From Candidatus Eiseniibacteriota bacterium (lineage in GTDB: Bacteria > Arandabacterota > Arandabacteria > JAGLYR01), in NCBI GenBank assembly GCA_023132135.1, contig JAGLYR010000137.1, positions 1 through 11,374 on the forward strand: 11,374 nucleotides of DNA, written 5' to 3'. Shown piece after piece: positions 2,138-11,279 of the stretch (its first letter is position 1; each line of letters opens with the position of its first letter). The notes below the pieces were generated by a model. The model worked only from the letters and a program-made list of their open reading frames with translations, made no database searches and was not told where the DNA came from. Made by a program: the position numbers and the translations under genes.

Positions 2138-2196
2138 AGATGGTCATGAGTAGAGTCGTGAGATGCGTGTCAGCTTTGCATAGAGGGAGGTTCTTC

Positions 2197-4509
2197 ATGA
2201 AGAAGGGGAAGGCTTTTGTAATGATTGGTGTCTTTTGTGTGGCCATTCTAGCTCTCCTGGTCTCTATCCCGGCGGTGGCCGGAGAAGATGCGACTCACGA
2301 CGGGGCTCTGGGGGTGGCCAATCCCGCAGCCGTCTACTGCCGCGAACTGGGCTACGAGGTCGAAGTTATCCGGACAGAAGCCGGCGAGCGGCTGATATGC
2401 ACCCTGCCCAACGGCGAGATCTGCGATGCGTGGGATTTCTACAGAGGCAAAGTCTGGCAGGAATATTCCTATTGCGCGCTCCAGGGGTACGAAACGGTCA
2501 CCCGGACCAACAGCGACGGTTCCTTTACCACTGAGTGCGCGGTCTGTATGGGTGTGGACGGGACGGAGATGGGAACCGTAGCAGAACTGATGAACCTGAC
2601 CGGGAAGATCATCACCGGTATCGGGATTCCGGGGGATTCCGGCGTCCCGGAGGAATTCCCTGTCTATGGACAGCCCGGTCGGGACCTTCCGTCCTACTTC
2701 AACTGGTGCGACCAGGGCGGATGCACGTCCGTCAAGAACCAGTCCTCCTGCGGCAGCTGCTGGGCCTTCGCCACGGTGGTTCCCCTCGAGTGCAACATCC
2801 TGATCAAGGAGAGCGTGGAAGTCGATCTCTCCGAGCAGTGGCTGGTGAGCTGCAACCAGGAGGGCTATGACTGTGGCGGCGGCTGGTGGGTCCACCAGTA
2901 CCACGAGTGGAAAACGGATCCCTGCGGTGGGACGGGAGCGGTTCTGGAGTCCAACTTCCCCTACACAGCGACGGATGCTCCGTGCAACTGCCCCTACGAC
3001 CATGACTACCTCATTGAAGCCTGGGACTACGTGGGCAGTAGCAGCAGTGTTCCCCCGGTCAACTCCGTCAAGCAGGCCATCATGGACTACGGTCCCGCCT
3101 GCGTTGCCGTAACTGTGAACACCGCATTCCATGACTACAGCGGCGGCGTGTTCAACAGCTGCAGCACTTCGGGCGTCAACCATGGCGTCGGTCTGGTCGG
3201 CTGGGACGACAGCCTGGGCTCCGGCGGCGCCTGGCTCTTGAAGAACTCCTGGGGACCGGGCTGGGGCGAGAACGGATACATGTGGATTGAGTACGGCTGC
3301 AGCTACATCGGCTACGCGGCCACCTACGTGGACTACAGCAACCCGCTGAAGATCGCGCTCCCCAATGGGGTTCCGGAAGCTGTTCCTCCCGGCGAGGCGA
3401 CGACCCTCCTGGTCCAGATCGACGAGACGGGCGATATCTACGTCTCCGGAACGGGCATGCTTCACTACCGCTACGACGGCGGGACATACCTCACGTCATC
3501 CCTGGTGCATCTCGGTGGCGACTTGTACGAAGCCACACTGCCCGCTCCGGCCTGCGACGACTCACCGGAGTACTACTTCAGCGCCGAGGGTGTGGCCTCG
3601 GGAACCGTCTACAATCCAAGGCAGGCCCCGACGTCCAACTACACGTCGGTGGTGGGCACTCTCACGACGGTCTTCGCCGACGATTTTGAATCGGCTTCCG
3701 GATGGACCGTGGAGAATGATGCGTCTCTCACGGATGGCGCCTGGGACCGCGGCGTCCCGGTGGGTGGAGGGGATCGCGGCGATCCCCCGACCGACTTCGA
3801 CGGATCGGGCAAGTGTTTCCTGACAGACAATGTCGATGATAACTCCGACGTCGATGGAGGAATCACGTGGCTGATTTCTCCGGTTCTTGACGCCACGGTG
3901 GGGGATCAGGTCCGGATCAAGTATGCCCTGTGGTACACGAACTACTTCGGGAACAATCCCAACAACGATCTGTTCAAGGCCTACGTGTCCAATGATAACG
4001 GTTCGAACTGGATACTGGCGGAGACGATTGGGCCCAGCAGCTCGAGCGGATGGACGGAGCGGGGCTTCCTCATCAACGACTTCGTCACCGCTACGGATCA
4101 GGTGAAAGTTCGGTTCGAAGCTTCGGACCTTGGCGGGGGATCCGTCGTGGAAGCGGGCATCGATGCATTCATGGTTCAGGTGCTCGAATGCGCGGAGACC
4201 GGTGTTGCCGACCTGCGTGTTGGCGTGTCCGACTATCGTCTCCACGCGAATGTCCCGAACCCCTTCAATCCGAACACGGTCATCCGGTACGAGCTGCCTC
4301 GGCCGGGTGCGGTTCATCTCAACGTCTATGACGTTTCCGGCCGCATGATCCGGGCGCTGGTGAGCTCGCCGCTCCAGGGAGCGGGCGAGCACTCGGTCGA
4401 GTGGAATGGTCGGGACGGAAGCGGTCAGCCGGTGGCTTCGGGTGTGTATTTCTACAGGCTCGAGACCGGCGAGAGGACATTCACGAGGAAGATGGTATTG
4501 ACGAAGTGA
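2197..4509 (+). CDS. Secreted papain-family (C1A) cysteine protease with DUF333, jelly-roll region and C-terminal sorting domain
   Basis: The protein has 770 residues. A signal peptide occupies 1-28 (Lys-rich start, hydrophobic core, cleavage after AVA28). A DUF333-like segment follows at about 41-98 (NPAAVYC to the WDFYR region). The C1A catalytic domain spans about 165-382: oxyanion Gln182, nucleophile Cys188 in CGSCWAFA, His329 in GVNHG and Asn350 in LLKNSW, so all catalytic residues are present. A beta-rich spacer (385-490) is followed by a MAM/concanavalin-like jelly-roll region (493-665). A FlgD-like/type IX-style sorting domain (about 678-770) starts at PNPFNPNT and ends TRKMVLTK. I see no I29 inhibitor propeptide; DUF333 occupies its place. 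I chose ATG 2197 for its GAGGGAGG ribosome-binding site at 2183-2190 and its proper signal peptide; the upstream in-frame ATG at 2140 lies at the promoter. The protein is probably exported and surface-anchored or released to degrade external protein. Confidence 0.93.
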
Positions 4510-4526: not shown

Positions 4527-4615
4527 GCCCTATTTCCTCGACACTCGACACTTGTCACTCGCCCTCGTCACACGGACGGGGCGCTGGCCCCAATCCAGTG
4601 ACAGGTGACAGGGTG
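4527..4615 (-). repeat. Right arm of the long inverted intergenic repeat
   Basis: This is the inverted partner of 1-88, with 51 nt uninterrupted at 4527-4577. It is made of near-heptamers: TCGACAC twice at 4538-4551, TTGTCAC at 4552-4558, and GTGACAG twice at 4598-4611, with a third imperfect copy running into 4620. It begins 17 nt after the protease stop codon. It is non-coding. The sequence 4616-4680 after it shows nothing recognisable. Confidence 0.85.
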
Positions 4616-4680
4616 ACAGGCGACTGGGATTGGGGAGTACTGCTGTCCGCGGCTTGCGCTCTCCATCAATCACCGGGGTC

Positions 4681-5728: not shown

Positions 5729-5757
5729 TTGACAGGAGGAACGAATGGCACTATATT
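5729..5757 (+). promoter_or_regulatory. Strong sigma70-type promoter of the oxidative-stress operon
   Basis: A perfect -35 TTGACA (5729-5734) and a -10 TATATT (5752-5757, five of six) are separated by exactly 17 nt. The transcription start would be near 5764, about 40 nt before the PerR-type gene. No comparable promoter was seen between the following genes, so this is the best candidate for driving the cluster to about 11279. Confidence 0.75.
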
Positions 5758-5802: not shown

Positions 5803-6219
5803 ATGATTCCAGCTTCGAAAAGGCGGATGACTCTCCAGCGAAAGATCATCCTGGAGGAGATAGAAAAGGTGAACGCACATCCGGCAGCGGATGAGGTGTA
5901 CGAGCTGGTCCGCGGGCGTCTGCCCAAGATCAGCCTCGGCACGGTTTACCGGAACCTCGAGATCCTGTCCGAGAGCGGTCTCATCCGGAAGCTCGACCTG
6001 GGAGACGGGCAATGGCGTTTTGACGGGAATCTGAAGGATCACTACCACGTGCAGTGCATCAGGTGTGGCAGGATTGGAGACGTGTTCTGCAAGCCATGCG
6101 AGGATCTGGAGGAATCGGTCCAGGAGAAAACCGAGTTCGAGATCCTCTCGCACCGGCTGGATTTCGTGGGGTTGTGCCCGGAGTGCAAACGGAAGGAGGA
6201 ACAGCAATGGCAGGACTGA
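5803..6219 (+). CDS. perR: Fur-family transcriptional regulator, PerR type
   Basis: The protein has 138 residues, usual for the family. The winged-helix DNA-binding part covers 8-75, with the recognition helix around SLGTVYRNLEIL (45-56). The dimer/metal part contains DHYHVQCIRCG (79-89). Structural zinc would be held by Cys85/Cys88 and Cys125/Cys128. The residues expected for the PerR peroxide-sensing iron site are all found by position: His26 (AHPAAD), Asp74, His80, His82 and Asp93. The Asp at 93, where Fur and Zur usually have Glu, favours PerR. An extra CxxC (Cys96, Cys99) is unusual. PerR with Fe(II) is inactivated by H2O2 oxidation of its His ligands, which derepresses targets. The gene is first in the operon and overlaps the rubrerythrin start by 13 nt, so autoregulation is likely. 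The ribosome-binding site is weak (AGGAC). Confidence 0.88.
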   Translation: MIPASKRRMTLQRKIILEEIEKVNAHPAADEVYELVRGRLPKISLGTVYRNLEILSESGLIRKLDLGDGQWRFDGNLKDHYHVQCIRCGRIGDVFCKPCEDLEESVQEKTEFEILSHRLDFVGLCPECKRKEEQQWQD

Positions 6220-6782
6220 AGGGAACGAAGACGGAAAAGAACATCCTGACGGCATTCGCCGGCGAATCGCAGGCGCGTAACCGCTATGCCTACTTCGCCG
6301 GCAAGGCAAGGGACGAAGGGTTCGTGCAGATCTCAGCGATCTTCACCGAGACGGCAGACCAGGAGAAGGAACATGCCAAGCGCCTGTTCAAGCTGCTGGA
6401 AGGCGGCGAGGTGGAAATCCAGGCAGGCTTCCCGGCAGGGGTCATCGGGACGACCGCCGAGAACCTGAAAGCGTCGGCGGGCGGAGAGAACTTCGAGTGG
6501 ACAGAGATGTATCCCGAGTTCGCCAAGATTGCCCGCGAGGAAGGCTTCGACGAGATCGCAGGGATATTCGAATCCATCGCGGTGGCCGAAAAGCAGCATG
6601 AGAAGCGCTACTTGGGCGTACTGGCGAACGTTGAGGCGGGGACCGTGTTCAAGAAGGACAAGGCGGTTGTCTGGCGGTGCCGGAATTGCGGATACCTCCA
6701 CGAAGGGACAGAGGCCCCGAGTTTGTGTCCGGCCTGCGCGCATCCACAGGCGCACTTTGAGCTGCTCTGCGAGAATTGGTAG
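6207..6782 (+). CDS. rbr: Rubrerythrin
   Basis: This 191-residue protein is a cytosolic diiron peroxidase that reduces H2O2 to water with electrons from rubredoxin. The ferritin-like four-helix domain (about 1-145) carries the expected ligands: Glu20, Glu53 and His56 in the first half, Glu94 and Glu97 in the second, and the E-x-x-H pair Glu128/His131. The C-terminal rubredoxin-like domain (about 152-191) binds iron with Cys158/Cys161 and Cys174/Cys177. Length and domain order match the classical Desulfovibrio type. The start at 6207 has GGAAGGAGGA at 6191-6200 upstream and overlaps the end of the regulator gene, which points to translational coupling. The high-molecular-weight rubredoxin further down the operon is a plausible electron donor. 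Confidence 0.96.
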   Translation: MAGLKGTKTEKNILTAFAGESQARNRYAYFAGKARDEGFVQISAIFTETADQEKEHAKRLFKLLEGGEVEIQAGFPAGVIGTTAENLKASAGGENFEWTEMYPEFAKIAREEGFDEIAGIFESIAVAEKQHEKRYLGVLANVEAGTVFKKDKAVVWRCRNCGYLHEGTEAPSLCPACAHPQAHFELLCENW

Positions 6783-6820
6783 AACAACAGGAATTGGCCT
6801 GGAATGCCAACAAGGGGTGG

Positions 6821-7714
6821 GTGTTGAGGAAGAGAACGGGGAGCGTTGCGATCCGAAACCGGCTAAACGATCTCTATGCCAGGTACAACCGGCGGGAGTT
6901 CGTCCATCCGGATCCCATCGAGTTTCTGTACAGATACGAGAATTCCCTCGATCGGGAGATTGCCGGGCTGGTCGCCTCTTCGCTGGCCTTCGGGAGGGTT
7001 GCCCAGATCCACCGGAGCGTATCCCGGGTGCTTGACCGGATGGAAGAACCGGCTGCATTTGTCCGGGAAACACCGCCACGATCAATCCGGAAAATCTTCG
7101 CCGGCTTCAGGCATCGGTACGCGACGGGGATGGAGATGGCGGAACTGCTGCTGGGTATCCGGCGCGCGGTCAGGGAGCACGGATCGCTGCGGGCCTGTTT
7201 CGTGAGCGGGATCGGTGAGGAGGACGAGACAGTTCTCCCGGGGCTCAATGCTCTCGCCGAGAATCTGGTGGGCGACAGTGGAGGGGAGTGCAACAGCCTG
7301 CTTCCGCTGCCCCGCCGCGGTAGCGCCTGCAAACGATTGAATCTGTACCTGCGTTGGATGGTGAGGCATGATGAGGTGGATCCCGGGGGGTGGGACGAGG
7401 TGCCTCCATCAAGGCTGATTATCCCTCTGGATATTCACATGTACCGAGCCGGCCTGGAACTGGGATTCACAAGGAGGAAATCGGCCGATCTCAAGACAGC
7501 TCTCGAGGTGACAGAAGGATTTCGCAGAATCTGTCTGGAGGATCCTGTCCGATACGACTTTGCGATCACACGGTCTGCGATTGGGCAAACACGAGTCTCC
7601 GGGCTGGAGCATCATGCGGGAGAACCAGGAGGATCAGAACAGGAGGATCAGGATGAGCGAAAGAACAGGTCTGGTGACGATCGAAGGAGGACCACTGACG
7701 CTATCGGGCGATGA
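6821..7714 (+). CDS. DUF2400/TIGR02757 family protein with a frameshift-extended C-terminus
   Basis: The GTG start at 6821 gives 297 residues; TTG at 6824 or TTG at 6776 are alternatives. The family pattern is clear: LNDLYARYNRREF near the N-terminus, DPIEFLYRY, EIAGLVASSLAFGRVAQI (about 46-63), LLPLPRRGSACKRLNLYLRW (about 160-179) and LIIPLDIHMYR (about 199-209, Asp204 and His206), then DPVRYDFAITR. The biochemical function is unknown to me. The PLD-x-H segment followed by helices resembles the VDTHV region of HhH-GPD DNA glycosylases, and its place in a peroxide-defence operon would fit DNA repair; this is inference. The last 24 or so residues (EQEDQDERK to AIGR) are charged, lack family character and are read from tpx in another frame. 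They result from a 14-bp duplication at 7626-7653. The normal product would stop at about residue 273 with an ATGA overlap. Confidence 0.82.
   Translation: MLRKRTGSVAIRNRLNDLYARYNRREFVHPDPIEFLYRYENSLDREIAGLVASSLAFGRVAQIHRSVSRVLDRMEEPAAFVRETPPRSIRKIFAGFRHRYATGMEMAELLLGIRRAVREHGSLRACFVSGIGEEDETVLPGLNALAENLVGDSGGECNSLLPLPRRGSACKRLNLYLRWMVRHDEVDPGGWDEVPPSRLIIPLDIHMYRAGLELGFTRRKSADLKTALEVTEGFRRICLEDPVRYDFAITRSAIGQTRVSGLEHHAGEPGGSEQEDQDERKNRSGDDRRRTTDAIGR
7626..7653 (+). repeat. 14-bp tandem duplication of the tpx ribosome-binding site
   Basis: CAGGAGGATCAG occurs at 7626-7637 and again at 7640-7651, a period of 14 nt. Each copy contains AGGAGG; the second is 6 nt from the tpx ATG and is the one ribosomes would use. 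Because 14 is not a multiple of three, the duplication shifts the overlapping DUF2400 reading frame. Confidence 0.9.
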
Positions 7715-8168
7715 GGTCAAGGTTGGGGACAAGGCCCCGGATTGTGATGTCCTGGACAATGACCTGAACCCCGTAAAGCTATCCGGTTTCGCTGGGAAGG
7801 TGCTGGTGATTTCCGCAGTCCCATCGCTGGACACTCCGGTGTGCGATACCGAGACCCGGAGGTTCAACGATGAAGCGACGAAGCTGGGTCCCGACGTGGT
7901 GATCCTGACGGTCAGCATGGATTTGCCCTTTGCGCAGAAGCGGTGGTGCGGCGCGGCGGGGGTGGATCGTGTGAAGACAGTCTCGGATCACCGGGACGCG
8001 TCCTTCGGCGCTGCATACGGGGTTTTGATCAAGGAACTGCGCCTGCTGGCGCGAGCTGTCTTCGTGGTGGACAAGGAAGGTGTTATCCGGTACATCCAGC
8101 TGGTCAAGGAAGTGACTGATGAGCCGGATTATGAATCGGTTCTCGAAGCCGTGCGGAAACTGATGTAG
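7653..8168 (+). CDS. tpx: Thiol peroxidase (Tpx, atypical 2-Cys peroxiredoxin)
   Basis: The 171-residue length is typical of Tpx. The protein reduces H2O2 and alkyl hydroperoxides using thioredoxin-type reductants. The peroxidatic site is SLDTPVCDTETRRF, with Cys64 and Thr61; the resolving Cys99 lies in FAQKRWCGAAG; the conserved Arg134 is in LLARAVFVVD. The C-terminal QLVKEVTDEPDYE (149-161) matches the family. The start at 7653 is set by AGGAGG at 7641-7646 and by the N-terminus MSERTGLVTIEGGPLTLSG, which aligns with Tpx; codons further upstream in this frame belong to the overlapping DUF2400 gene. The overlap with DUF2400 is 62 nt because of the local duplication. Confidence 0.96.
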   Translation: MSERTGLVTIEGGPLTLSGDEVKVGDKAPDCDVLDNDLNPVKLSGFAGKVLVISAVPSLDTPVCDTETRRFNDEATKLGPDVVILTVSMDLPFAQKRWCGAAGVDRVKTVSDHRDASFGAAYGVLIKELRLLARAVFVVDKEGVIRYIQLVKEVTDEPDYESVLEAVRKLM

Positions 8169-8176
8169 GGGGCGCC

Positions 8177-8212
8177 GGGAGGTGCGGGATGGCCCGATTC
8201 CCCGCTCCGCCC
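8177..8212 (+). other. Intercistronic hairpin between tpx and the desulfoferrodoxin gene
   Basis: Positions 8177-8189 pair with 8199-8212 around a 9-nt loop; the GC-rich stem has two mismatches and one bulged C. It fills most of the 64-nt gap and is not followed by a T-run. It could be an mRNA processing or stability element or partial attenuator; the assignment is by inspection only. Confidence 0.35.
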
Positions 8213-8232
8213 AGGATTGATGGAGGTGTACA

Positions 8233-8607
8233 GTGGCAGAGAAACTTGAGATCTACAAGTGCGAAATATGCGGGAACATCGTGGAGGTTCTTCACGGCGG
8301 CAAGGGGCAACTCGTATGTTGTGGCGCGCCGATGAAGCGTATGGACGAGAACACGGTGGATGCCGCCAAGGAGAAACACGTCCCTGTCGTGGAGAAGGTC
8401 GCCGGCGGGTTCAAGGTAACGGTCGGAAGCGTTGCCCATCCCATGGAGAAGGACCACTACATCGAGTGGATTGAGCTGGTCGCGGGCGGGAAGGCCTACC
8501 GGGCATTCCTGAATCCGGGCGATGCGCCGGAGGCGATGTTCTGCATCGAGGCAGACGAAGTGACGGCGCGCGAGTACTGCAACCTTCACAGACTGTGGAA
8601 AGGATAG
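8233..8607 (+). CDS. dfx: Desulfoferrodoxin (2Fe superoxide reductase)
   Basis: This 124-residue cytosolic protein reduces superoxide to H2O2 without releasing O2, a hallmark of anaerobes. Center I is a rubredoxin-like Fe(Cys)4 site: Cys10, Cys13, Cys29, Cys30 (CEIC and the adjacent CC). Center II, the catalytic Fe(His)4Cys site, is complete: His49 in EKHVPVVEK (with Glu47 and Lys48 that assist catalysis), His69, His75, Cys116 and His119 (YCNLH). Length and order match class I desulfoferrodoxin. It starts with GTG at 8233, preceded by TGGAGGTG. The H2O2 it makes would be removed by rubrerythrin and Tpx from the same transcript, and rubredoxin from the next gene can supply electrons. Confidence 0.97.
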
Positions 8608-8652
8608 AAGCGATGCTGAGCAAGTCGATGCATCAGCGCCGAGCTGGCCAAG

Positions 8653-8685
8653 ATGGTGGAAGAACGGAAGGGGGTAAGCACATGA
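8653..8685 (+). other. Vestigial or minimal reading frame before the rubredoxin fusion gene
   Basis: Within the 74-nt gap after the desulfoferrodoxin gene, the frame [16 protein letters not shown] runs to a TGA at 8683-8685 that overlaps the next start codon as ATGA. ATG 8653 would give only 10 residues. Such an overlap usually marks a true gene end, so this may be the tail of a gene otherwise lost. It is very short and may be chance. Confidence 0.2.
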
Positions 8686-9395
8686 TCACCGAAGGAATGA
8701 TCGATGCCCTGCTCACGTTGCCCTACGGCCTTCACATTGTTACTTCCCATGACGAGGGGAAAGTGAACGGCCAGGTGGCAAACGCGGTCTGCCAGGTGAC
8801 AGCGGAGCCACCAAAGATGATGATTTGCATCCACAAAGGCAACCTGACCCACGAGTACATCTCGAAGAGCAGCGTTCTGGCCATCTCCGTCCTTGAGCAA
8901 GAGACTCCGATGACGTTCATCGGTCTTTTTGGATTCAAATCGGGACGGGATGTGGACAAGATGTCAGAGACTAAATGGGAAAAAGGAGTGACGGGTGCTC
9001 CCGTCGTGATGGACCACGCCGTCACTGTTTTTGAGGGGAAGGTCGTAGACGAGTGCGACGTCGGGACGCATACTCTTTTCCTTGCGGAGATCGTCAGAGC
9101 GGAGAGGGTCAAGGAAGCGCCGCCGCTCACCTACGCGCACTATCGGGCGGTCAGGCATGGCAAGTCCCCAAAGAATGCACCGACCTACCATCCTCCCTCC
9201 GGGGAGGAGAAGGCGGAAAGGAGCGGAACCGGTATGAAGAAGTACGTGTGTGACGTGTGCGGCTACGTGTACGATCCCGCCATCGGCGATCCGGACAACA
9301 ACATAGCGCCGGGAACGGCTTTCGAGAGTCTTCCGGACGACTGGGTTTGCCCGCTGTGCGGGGCCGGCAAGAGTGATTTTTCAGTTCAGCAGTAA
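8682..9395 (+). CDS. hrb: High-molecular-weight rubredoxin: flavin reductase-like domain fused to rubredoxin
   Basis: The protein has 237 residues in two domains. Residues 1-165 are a flavin reductase-like FMN-binding domain ([12 protein letters not shown] at 13-24, [22 protein letters not shown] at 29-50). After a linker (166-184) comes a complete rubredoxin (185-237), with iron-binding Cys190/Cys193 and Cys223/Cys226 and the typical [23 protein letters not shown] middle. The Moorella protein Hrb has this build and passes electrons from NAD(P)H via FMN to the rubredoxin iron and on to a flavodiiron protein or rubrerythrin. No flavodiiron protein is present here, so rubrerythrin and desulfoferrodoxin are the likely partners. 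The start at 8682 follows GGAAGGGGGT at 8665-8674; a start at 8595 inside the desulfoferrodoxin gene is unlikely. Confidence 0.93.
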
Positions 9396-9409
9396 GGGAG
9401 GCTCGAAGA

Positions 9410-10363
9410 GTGGCCGGGATCGCAGACGATGTTACCGGGCTCGTAGGAAACACACCGCTGGTGAGACTCAACCGGATCGGTGAGGGCCTGGGCGCGGAAA
9501 TCGTTGCAAAACTGGAGTCGTTCAATCCGTGTTCGAGTGCGAAGGACCGGATTGGCCTGAGCATGATCGAGGCGGCCGAGCGCGACGGGACGATCGGCAA
9601 GGATACGATCGTCATCGAGCCCACCAGCGGAAACACGGGGATAGCCCTGGCTTTTGTCTGCGCGGCCAAGGGGTACAGGCTGATCCTGACGATGCCCGAC
9701 ACGATGAGCGTCGAGAGGCGGCAGCTGTTCAAGGTTTTCGGTGCGGATCTGGTTTTGACACCAGGGGCGGAGGGAATGCCGGGAGCCATCCGCAAGGCGG
9801 AGAAGCTGGCGGCATCGGGTCCCGGGTACTTCATGCCCCAGCAGTTCAAGAACCCGTCAAATCCTGAGGTCCACAGAAAGACAACGGCGGAGGAAATCTG
9901 GGAAGACACCGGGGGGCGGGTTGACATTCTGATCTCGGGTGTGGGGACCGGTGGCACCCTCACGGGGGTGGCGGAAGTCATCAAGGAAAGAAAGCCCTCA
10001 TTCAAGGCGATAGCGGTCGAGCCCGCGGATTCGCCCGTTCTCTCGGGAGGCGCTCCGGGGCCCCACAAGATCCAGGGGATCGGCGCAGGCTTTATTCCCG
10101 ATGTGCTTCGCACGGATCTGGTGGACGAGATCATTCAGGTCCGGCATGAGGACGGCGGGGCAATGGCCCGCAGGCTCGCTCGCGAGGAAGGTATCCTGGC
10201 GGGCATCTCTTCCGGCGCGGCGCTGTGGGCGGGGGTGGGGGTAGCCGGGAGACCGGAGAACGCCGGGAAGATGATAGTGGTCATTCTTCCCGACACCGGG
10301 GAGCGGTACTTGAGCACATGGCTGTTCGAGGATCCGGACGAAGGAGGAGGCAATGGGTCGTGA
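9410..10363 (+). CDS. cysK: O-acetylserine sulfhydrylase (cysteine synthase A)
   Basis: This 317-residue PLP enzyme of fold type II condenses O-acetylserine with sulfide to make cysteine. Lys45 in NPCSSAKDR forms the internal aldimine. The substrate loop PTSGNTG is at 71-77 and the phosphate-binding loop GVGTGGT at 177-183. GISSGAA at 265-271 supplies the Ser near the pyridine nitrogen, and [10 protein letters not shown] is at 294-303. Length and motif order are standard. The GTG start at 9410 has AAGGGAGG at 9394-9401, only 14 nt after the rubredoxin fusion stop. The end overlaps the acetyltransferase start by 11 nt, so synthesis of the two steps of cysteine formation is coupled. Cystathionine beta-synthase-like activity is a less likely alternative. 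Confidence 0.95.
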
Positions 10364-11279
10364 CCGCCGGCGGGAGGAAAACAAGCTCGGGTCCATCGTA
10401 GATCGGCTGTGCGATCGGGAAAGTGGACTCATCGGGCCGGCCCGGAGGGGACATGGCCAACCTCTGCCTTCGAGGGACGCAGTCATCAGTATTGTGGAGG
10501 ATCTGCGGGCGATCCTGTTCCCGGGGTACTTCGGAATCTCGGATCTGGATGTGGATAACATGCAGTACCACGTCGGCTCCACGCTGGATCGGGTCCGCCG
10601 GGAACTCCAGGAGCAGATCAAGCGGGGGATCTGCTTCGTCTGTGACAAACCTCCCGATGAGTGTACCACGTGTGAAGATCGCTCCCTGGCGATGATAGAC
10701 GCTTTCGTCGAACGGCTGCCTGTGATCCAGCGCCTTCTGGCAACGAGCACCCAAGCCGCCTACGAGGGCGATCCGGCCGCTACAAGCCCCGATGAGACCA
10801 TCTTCTGCTATCCCGGTATGCTGGCCATCACCAACTATCGCATCGCACACGAGCTCTACCATCTGGGAGTCCCGCTGATTCCCCGAATCATCACGGAACA
10901 AGCGCACAGTCTCACCGGGATAGACATCCACCCCGGCGCGCGCATCGCCGAGAGCTTTTTCATCGATCATGGCACCGGAGTGGTGATCGGGGAGACAACC
11001 ATCATCGGCAAACGAGTCCGGCTGTACCAGGGTGTGACCCTGGGGGCGAAGAGCTTCCCGATGGACAAGGACGGGAATCCTATCAAGGGAATCGACCGGC
11101 ACCCCATCGTGGAGGACGATGTGATCATCTACTCGGGCGCCACGATCCTGGGCCGGGTGACAATCGGCAGGGGTTCGGTTGTCGGCGGCAACGTCTGGCT
11201 CGTGGATGATGTGCCGCCGGGCAGCCGGATTGCCCAGAAGACCGGATGGGGTGAAGCCGGGGAGGGTGATGTGAGATGA
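10353..11279 (+). CDS. cysE: Serine O-acetyltransferase (long, Cys-cluster type)
   Basis: This 308-residue protein transfers acetyl from acetyl-CoA to serine, giving the substrate of the preceding CysK. The N-terminal helical part (1-180) includes a cysteine pair cluster CFVC-x6-CTTC (Cys94, Cys97, Cys104, Cys107) absent from the E. coli enzyme. [22 protein letters not shown] (151-172) leads into the left-handed beta-helix (about 185-290) with [22 protein letters not shown] and GGNVWL. The catalytic pair expected by alignment is Asp191 and His206. The end, GEGDVR, lacks the C-terminal Ile that inserts into CysK in the enterobacterial cysteine synthase complex. The start at 10353 follows AAGGAGGAGG at 10341-10350. 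The Cys cluster could bind zinc or iron; that is inference. It is the last gene seen in the operon. Confidence 0.94.

Follow-up and report, generated by a model that had tools for sequence, protein, structure and literature searches.

A short tandem duplication at a DUF2400/tpx junction probably carried the DUF2400 gene past a likely former ATGA stop

Long overlaps between co-directional genes were classified by Palleja et al. 2008 (PMC2478687), who assigned 68 of 715 cases to 3' extension of the upstream gene by frameshift; in such class iii overlaps the upstream gene is longer at its 3' end, the downstream gene is normal and the overlap is at least 60 nt. Two further kinds of junction are closely related to the one described here: ATGA termination–reinitiation junctions, in which, according to PMC6728339 and PMC10666635, translational coupling depends strongly on short distances, and the short tandem duplications that replication slippage leaves as two adjacent near-identical copies. 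The window analyzed here (the whole stretch of 11,374 nt of a Candidatus Eiseniibacteriota draft genome) contains a DUF2400 gene that overlaps the following thiol peroxidase gene, tpx, by 62 nt. The DUF2400/tpx junction fits the class iii description of a 3' extension of the upstream gene, and differs in that the cause is visible, as a tandem repeat at the junction, and in that the gene lengths are compared with those of relatives, not near orthologues. With one repeat unit, the junction would be exactly of this ATGA kind, with the Shine–Dalgarno (SD) sequence inside the upstream gene; in the present sequence, by contrast, DUF2400 ends in a stop codon 56 nt beyond the tpx start codon. Like other slippage duplications it consists of two adjacent near-identical copies and has many counterparts in the genome but, unlike them, it lies at a ribosome-binding site and alters the 3' end of a gene.

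The sequence CAGGAGGATCAG occurs twice, exactly, at a shift of 14 nt just 5' of tpx (Table 1). The repeat is beyond chance, as the doubled CAGGAGGATCAG was absent from dinucleotide shuffles (0 of 200), and it forms the top-scoring tandem array of the window (TRF score 55). The preliminary description had reported a repeat of 14-nt period before tpx, and had noted that removing one unit brings the DUF2400 frame onto a stop codon overlapping the tpx start. Both copies are present with matching coordinates and frames, and removal of one 14-nt unit again gave a DUF2400 protein of 288 residues ending at TGA 7654–7656, in an ATGA junction; in the present sequence this stop/start overlap is absent.

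Table 1. Coordinates of the features at the DUF2400/tpx junction, numbered from the first nucleotide of the window.
Feature	Position	Strand	Basis or remark
Distal (first) CAGGAGGATCAG copy	7626–7637	+	GGAGG ends 20 nt before tpx ATG
Proximal (second) CAGGAGGATCAG copy, tpx Shine–Dalgarno	7640–7651	+	GGAGG ends 6 nt before ATG 7653
Alternative repeat register AGAACCAGGAGGATC/AGAACAGGAGGATC	7621–7649	+	TRF, event count
DUF2400 / TIGR02757 protein, 312 residues, TTG start as listed	6776–7714	+	Family matches
Non-domain tail, 44 residues; displaced frame after first repeat copy	7580–7711	+	
tpx, thiol peroxidase, 171 residues	7653–8168	+	NF001808, PDB 2jsy
ATGA: tpx start and the TGA ending DUF2400 in the one-unit form	7653–7656	+	
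Actual DUF2400 stop	7712–7714	+	62-nt overlap with tpx

The two copies bearing CAGGAGGATCAG are not identical over the full 14-nt unit, and the best TRF alignment places a 15-nt first copy at 7621–7635 and a 14-nt second copy at 7636–7649. Enumeration of one-unit ancestors and single duplications of 8–23 nt returned only two solutions with one extra event: a 14-nt duplication with one substitution, and a 15-nt duplication with one deleted base. Because both need one further event, the single 14-nt slip proposed in the preliminary description is one of two equal histories; the tandem duplication itself is real, but a duplication of 15 nt with loss of one base fits it as well as the 14-nt slip does. 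On the 15-nt path an in-frame EPGGS repeat would have come first and a separate one-base loss next, and that lost base could be either a mutation or a sequence error. No DNA-level orthologue near enough to date or polarize the duplication was found: DUF2400 was absent from all seven other genomes of the phylum examined, which encode only distant peroxiredoxins, and other relatives share about 60% identity or less. We infer the polarity of the duplication, since no close relative carries DUF2400.

To place the junction in its genomic context, 40 stretches of the draft genome were sampled, of which 8 read as N, giving 351 kb of readable sequence including the window. Short tandem duplication is a common type of mutation in this genome: exact matches of at least 12 nt at shifts of 8–40 nt numbered 31 in the 351 kb, versus 0–4 in shuffles (about 1 expected), and many of the 31 are intergenic. 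Many short arrays with units of 7–8 nt also lie between genes, together with 14-nt intergenic arrays built from the related heptamers GGACTAC and GGACTAG (array sites in the window at 4–18, 54–78, 1905–1932, 1971–1996, 4537–4561 and 4598–4628, and in L043, L056 and L105). Among 199 same-strand neighbor pairs, an overlap of 4 nt was by far the commonest (22 pairs), and the DUF2400/tpx pair alone overlapped by more than 50 nt (gene calls are from a simple codon-score caller and overlap counts are approximate; the caller's upstream tpx start gives 101 nt rather than the 62 nt obtained with ATG 7653). Together, these two observations support an ATGA ancestor; the 4-nt overlap is thus the likely ancestral state and the long overlap derived.

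The DUF2400 domain spans residues 46–268, and about 20 of the 44 residues that follow it are present in the one-unit form too. Tails beyond the domain in 33 relatives, which are homologues rather than near orthologues, have a median length of 22 and a maximum of 39 residues (4–23 in those without a Cys). The description of the charged tail as devoid of family character was borne out. A tblastn search of 53 DUF2400 loci returned only chance matches to it, the aligned DUF2400 C-termini of relatives (again, not near orthologues) lack it, and it has no PHROG or PDB match. One candidate for a shared tail, at L016 (match reported over residues 25–308), was rejected because the match past residue 270 crosses a stop codon. 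The AlphaFold model is confident up to residue 270, and pLDDT falls below 50 at residues 272–312, predicting disorder. Where it runs within tpx, the tail scores −0.166 per codon in codon usage, equal to out-of-frame tpx (−0.17), versus +0.13 in the DUF2400 domain; as the 16 codons directly before the repeat also score low (−0.098 per codon), this measure does not single out the read-through part, and the whole end of the DUF2400 gene is weakly constrained. The next stop in the displaced frame within tpx comes after 19 codons, as by chance. The absence of the tail from relatives, its predicted disorder and its wrong-frame codon score likewise favor an extension derived from an ATGA ancestor.

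The downstream gene is of normal length. Tpx matches NCBIfam NF001808 at 208.6 bits (cut-off 123), with residues 8–168 corresponding to positions 4–166 of 167, and PDB 2jsy with an E-value of 2.8e-61. As the anti-SD pattern of 16S rRNA, GGATCACCTCCTT, was not found in the draft genome, the assessment of SD use relied on spacing statistics. The gap between the proximal GGAGG and the tpx ATG is the commonest in the genome sample; the gap from the distal GGAGG is used by no other sampled gene, and that copy, being too far from the ATG, would not serve tpx. RNA folding at the junction is no more stable than in shuffles, with no unusual hairpin. Because the adjacent SD is intact at the commonest spacing, de novo initiation of tpx should persist, and by analogy with coupled junctions only the stop/start coupling to DUF2400 has probably been lost. 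The suggestion that the duplication may change tpx translation is therefore retained for the coupling, the loss of which we infer, and not for the working SD, which is untouched.

Taken together, a real short tandem duplication that extended DUF2400 past its likely former ATGA stop and left the tpx SD unchanged is the probable explanation of the junction. The duplication (14 nt with a substitution, or 15 nt less one base) would have struck the segment carrying the tpx SD and shifted the last DUF2400 codons out of frame with the likely former stop, the TGA of ATGA. DUF2400 would then read on through about 20 codons of out-of-frame tpx to the next chance stop, and the protein would gain 24 residues, predicted to be disordered, after the folded domain; with the SD unchanged, de novo initiation would be kept, and stop/start coupling probably lost. 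Rather than a new system, the change looks like an ordinary mutation that is probably near-neutral, or it may reflect a single-base error in the sequence.

The equal fit of the 15-nt path leaves room for a one-base error, in which a true in-frame duplication (EPGGS twice) ends at ATGA and the sequence or assembly simply lacks one base. We regard this as unlikely, though several points favor it: a 15-nt duplication with a lost base is no less parsimonious than one of 14 nt with a substitution, TRF favors the register with one indel, the assembly is a draft of 345 contigs, and co-directional overlaps above 60 bp have been attributed either to errors of this kind or to extensions that are not conserved (PMC2478687). 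Against it, short tandem duplications are widespread in the genome, so no error needs to be invoked, and assembly programs are more prone to merge repeated units than to add extra ones. The variant in which the unit was wrongly doubled is less likely than one missing base.

It is improbable that selection has kept the long overlap and charged tail from an ancestor, either as a functional tail or as a double SD that aids ribosome loading on tpx. The frame is open and tails differ greatly in length from one family member to another, but this tail is common to no relative among the 53 loci, matches no known family or structure and is predicted to be disordered, and a double SD is opposed by a distal copy outside the spacing range in use and by unremarkable RNA structure. 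Very improbable also is a tpx start upstream at ATG 7614, preceded by GGAG, from which the repeat would code for MRENQEDQNRRIR within Tpx with no SD duplication at all; no stop interrupts the tpx frame as far back as 7560 and this start was chosen by the codon/SD start score, yet NF001808 begins at residue 8 of the version starting at 7653, the 13 added residues would lie outside the family, and AGGAGG at 7641 stands at the commonest spacing to ATG 7653. We give hardly any credence to a slippage switch, whereby the copy number of the repeat could alter the making of two oxidative-stress proteins; its states, with DUF2400 and tpx coupled at one unit and uncoupled, with the charged tail, at two, are just as remote a prospect. 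Three units would fuse DUF2400 in frame with tpx into a protein of 468 residues.

Apart from its C-terminus, the upstream protein is a clear family member, matching DUF2400 at 231.3 bits (cut-off 25) and TIGR02757 at 186.3 bits (cut-off 139.2). Our literature search found no paper on TIGR02757 and a single passing mention of DUF2400. The predicted structure of the protein (window 6776–7590) aligns with PDB 1orp in VIA-align over 187 residues with Z = 13.0 (note that this is a level at which VIA-align warns about helical proteins), and most of the VIA-align matches listed are DNA glycosylases; Foldseek with the same model gave a probability of 1.00 but an E-value of 0.014. Profile alignment to Nth homologues with hhalign (probability 96%, E = 3e-9) spans the Asp motif and the Cys cluster, and HhH-GPD appears as a weak Pfam match in 5 of 27 DUF2400 members. 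The motif IPxDTHxxR is common to endonuclease III and DUF2400: the invariant D219, in IPLDxHxxR (alignment A1), aligns with VDTHVxR of the Nth homologues, the segment of the catalytic Asp. K186, in GSACKR, is likewise invariant and is a candidate for the catalytic Lys of the HhH hairpin, the profile alignment stopping short of it. Many DUF2400 members have an Nth-like C-terminal Cys cluster, which this protein lacks. On these profile and model comparisons, DUF2400 looks like a divergent member of the HhH-GPD (endonuclease III) superfamily of DNA glycosylases.

The two genes belong to a cluster (5803–11279) of a Fur-family regulator, rubrerythrin, DUF2400, tpx, desulfoferrodoxin and flavin reductase–rubredoxin, then a cysteine-synthase-like PLP enzyme and a hexapeptide transferase, with a good sigma-70-like promoter match ahead of it at 5729. 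Similar oxidative-stress neighbors of DUF2400 recur in unrelated genomes: one (L085) has the order Fur, DUF2400, rubrerythrin, desulfoferrodoxin, and in another (L082) DUF2400 is preceded by tpx and desulfoferrodoxin. Elsewhere in the window, 57–473 encodes a separate copy of the dinitrogenase iron–molybdenum cofactor domain and adjoins a gene (558–1850) in which the same domain is fused at the C-terminus of a Mrp/NUBPL-type iron–sulfur P-loop NTPase; 2140–4509 encodes a papain-family peptidase with a DUF333 domain and a FlgD-like/Por secretion C-terminal region.

The DUF2400/tpx junction offers a legible example of how a small junction duplication can create a long co-directional overlap, and it warns against using this protein's C-terminus to define the DUF2400 family. 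The more valuable result concerns DUF2400 itself, a family still catalogued without a function, which appears to be a DNA glycosylase whose gene keeps company with those for oxidative-stress proteins.
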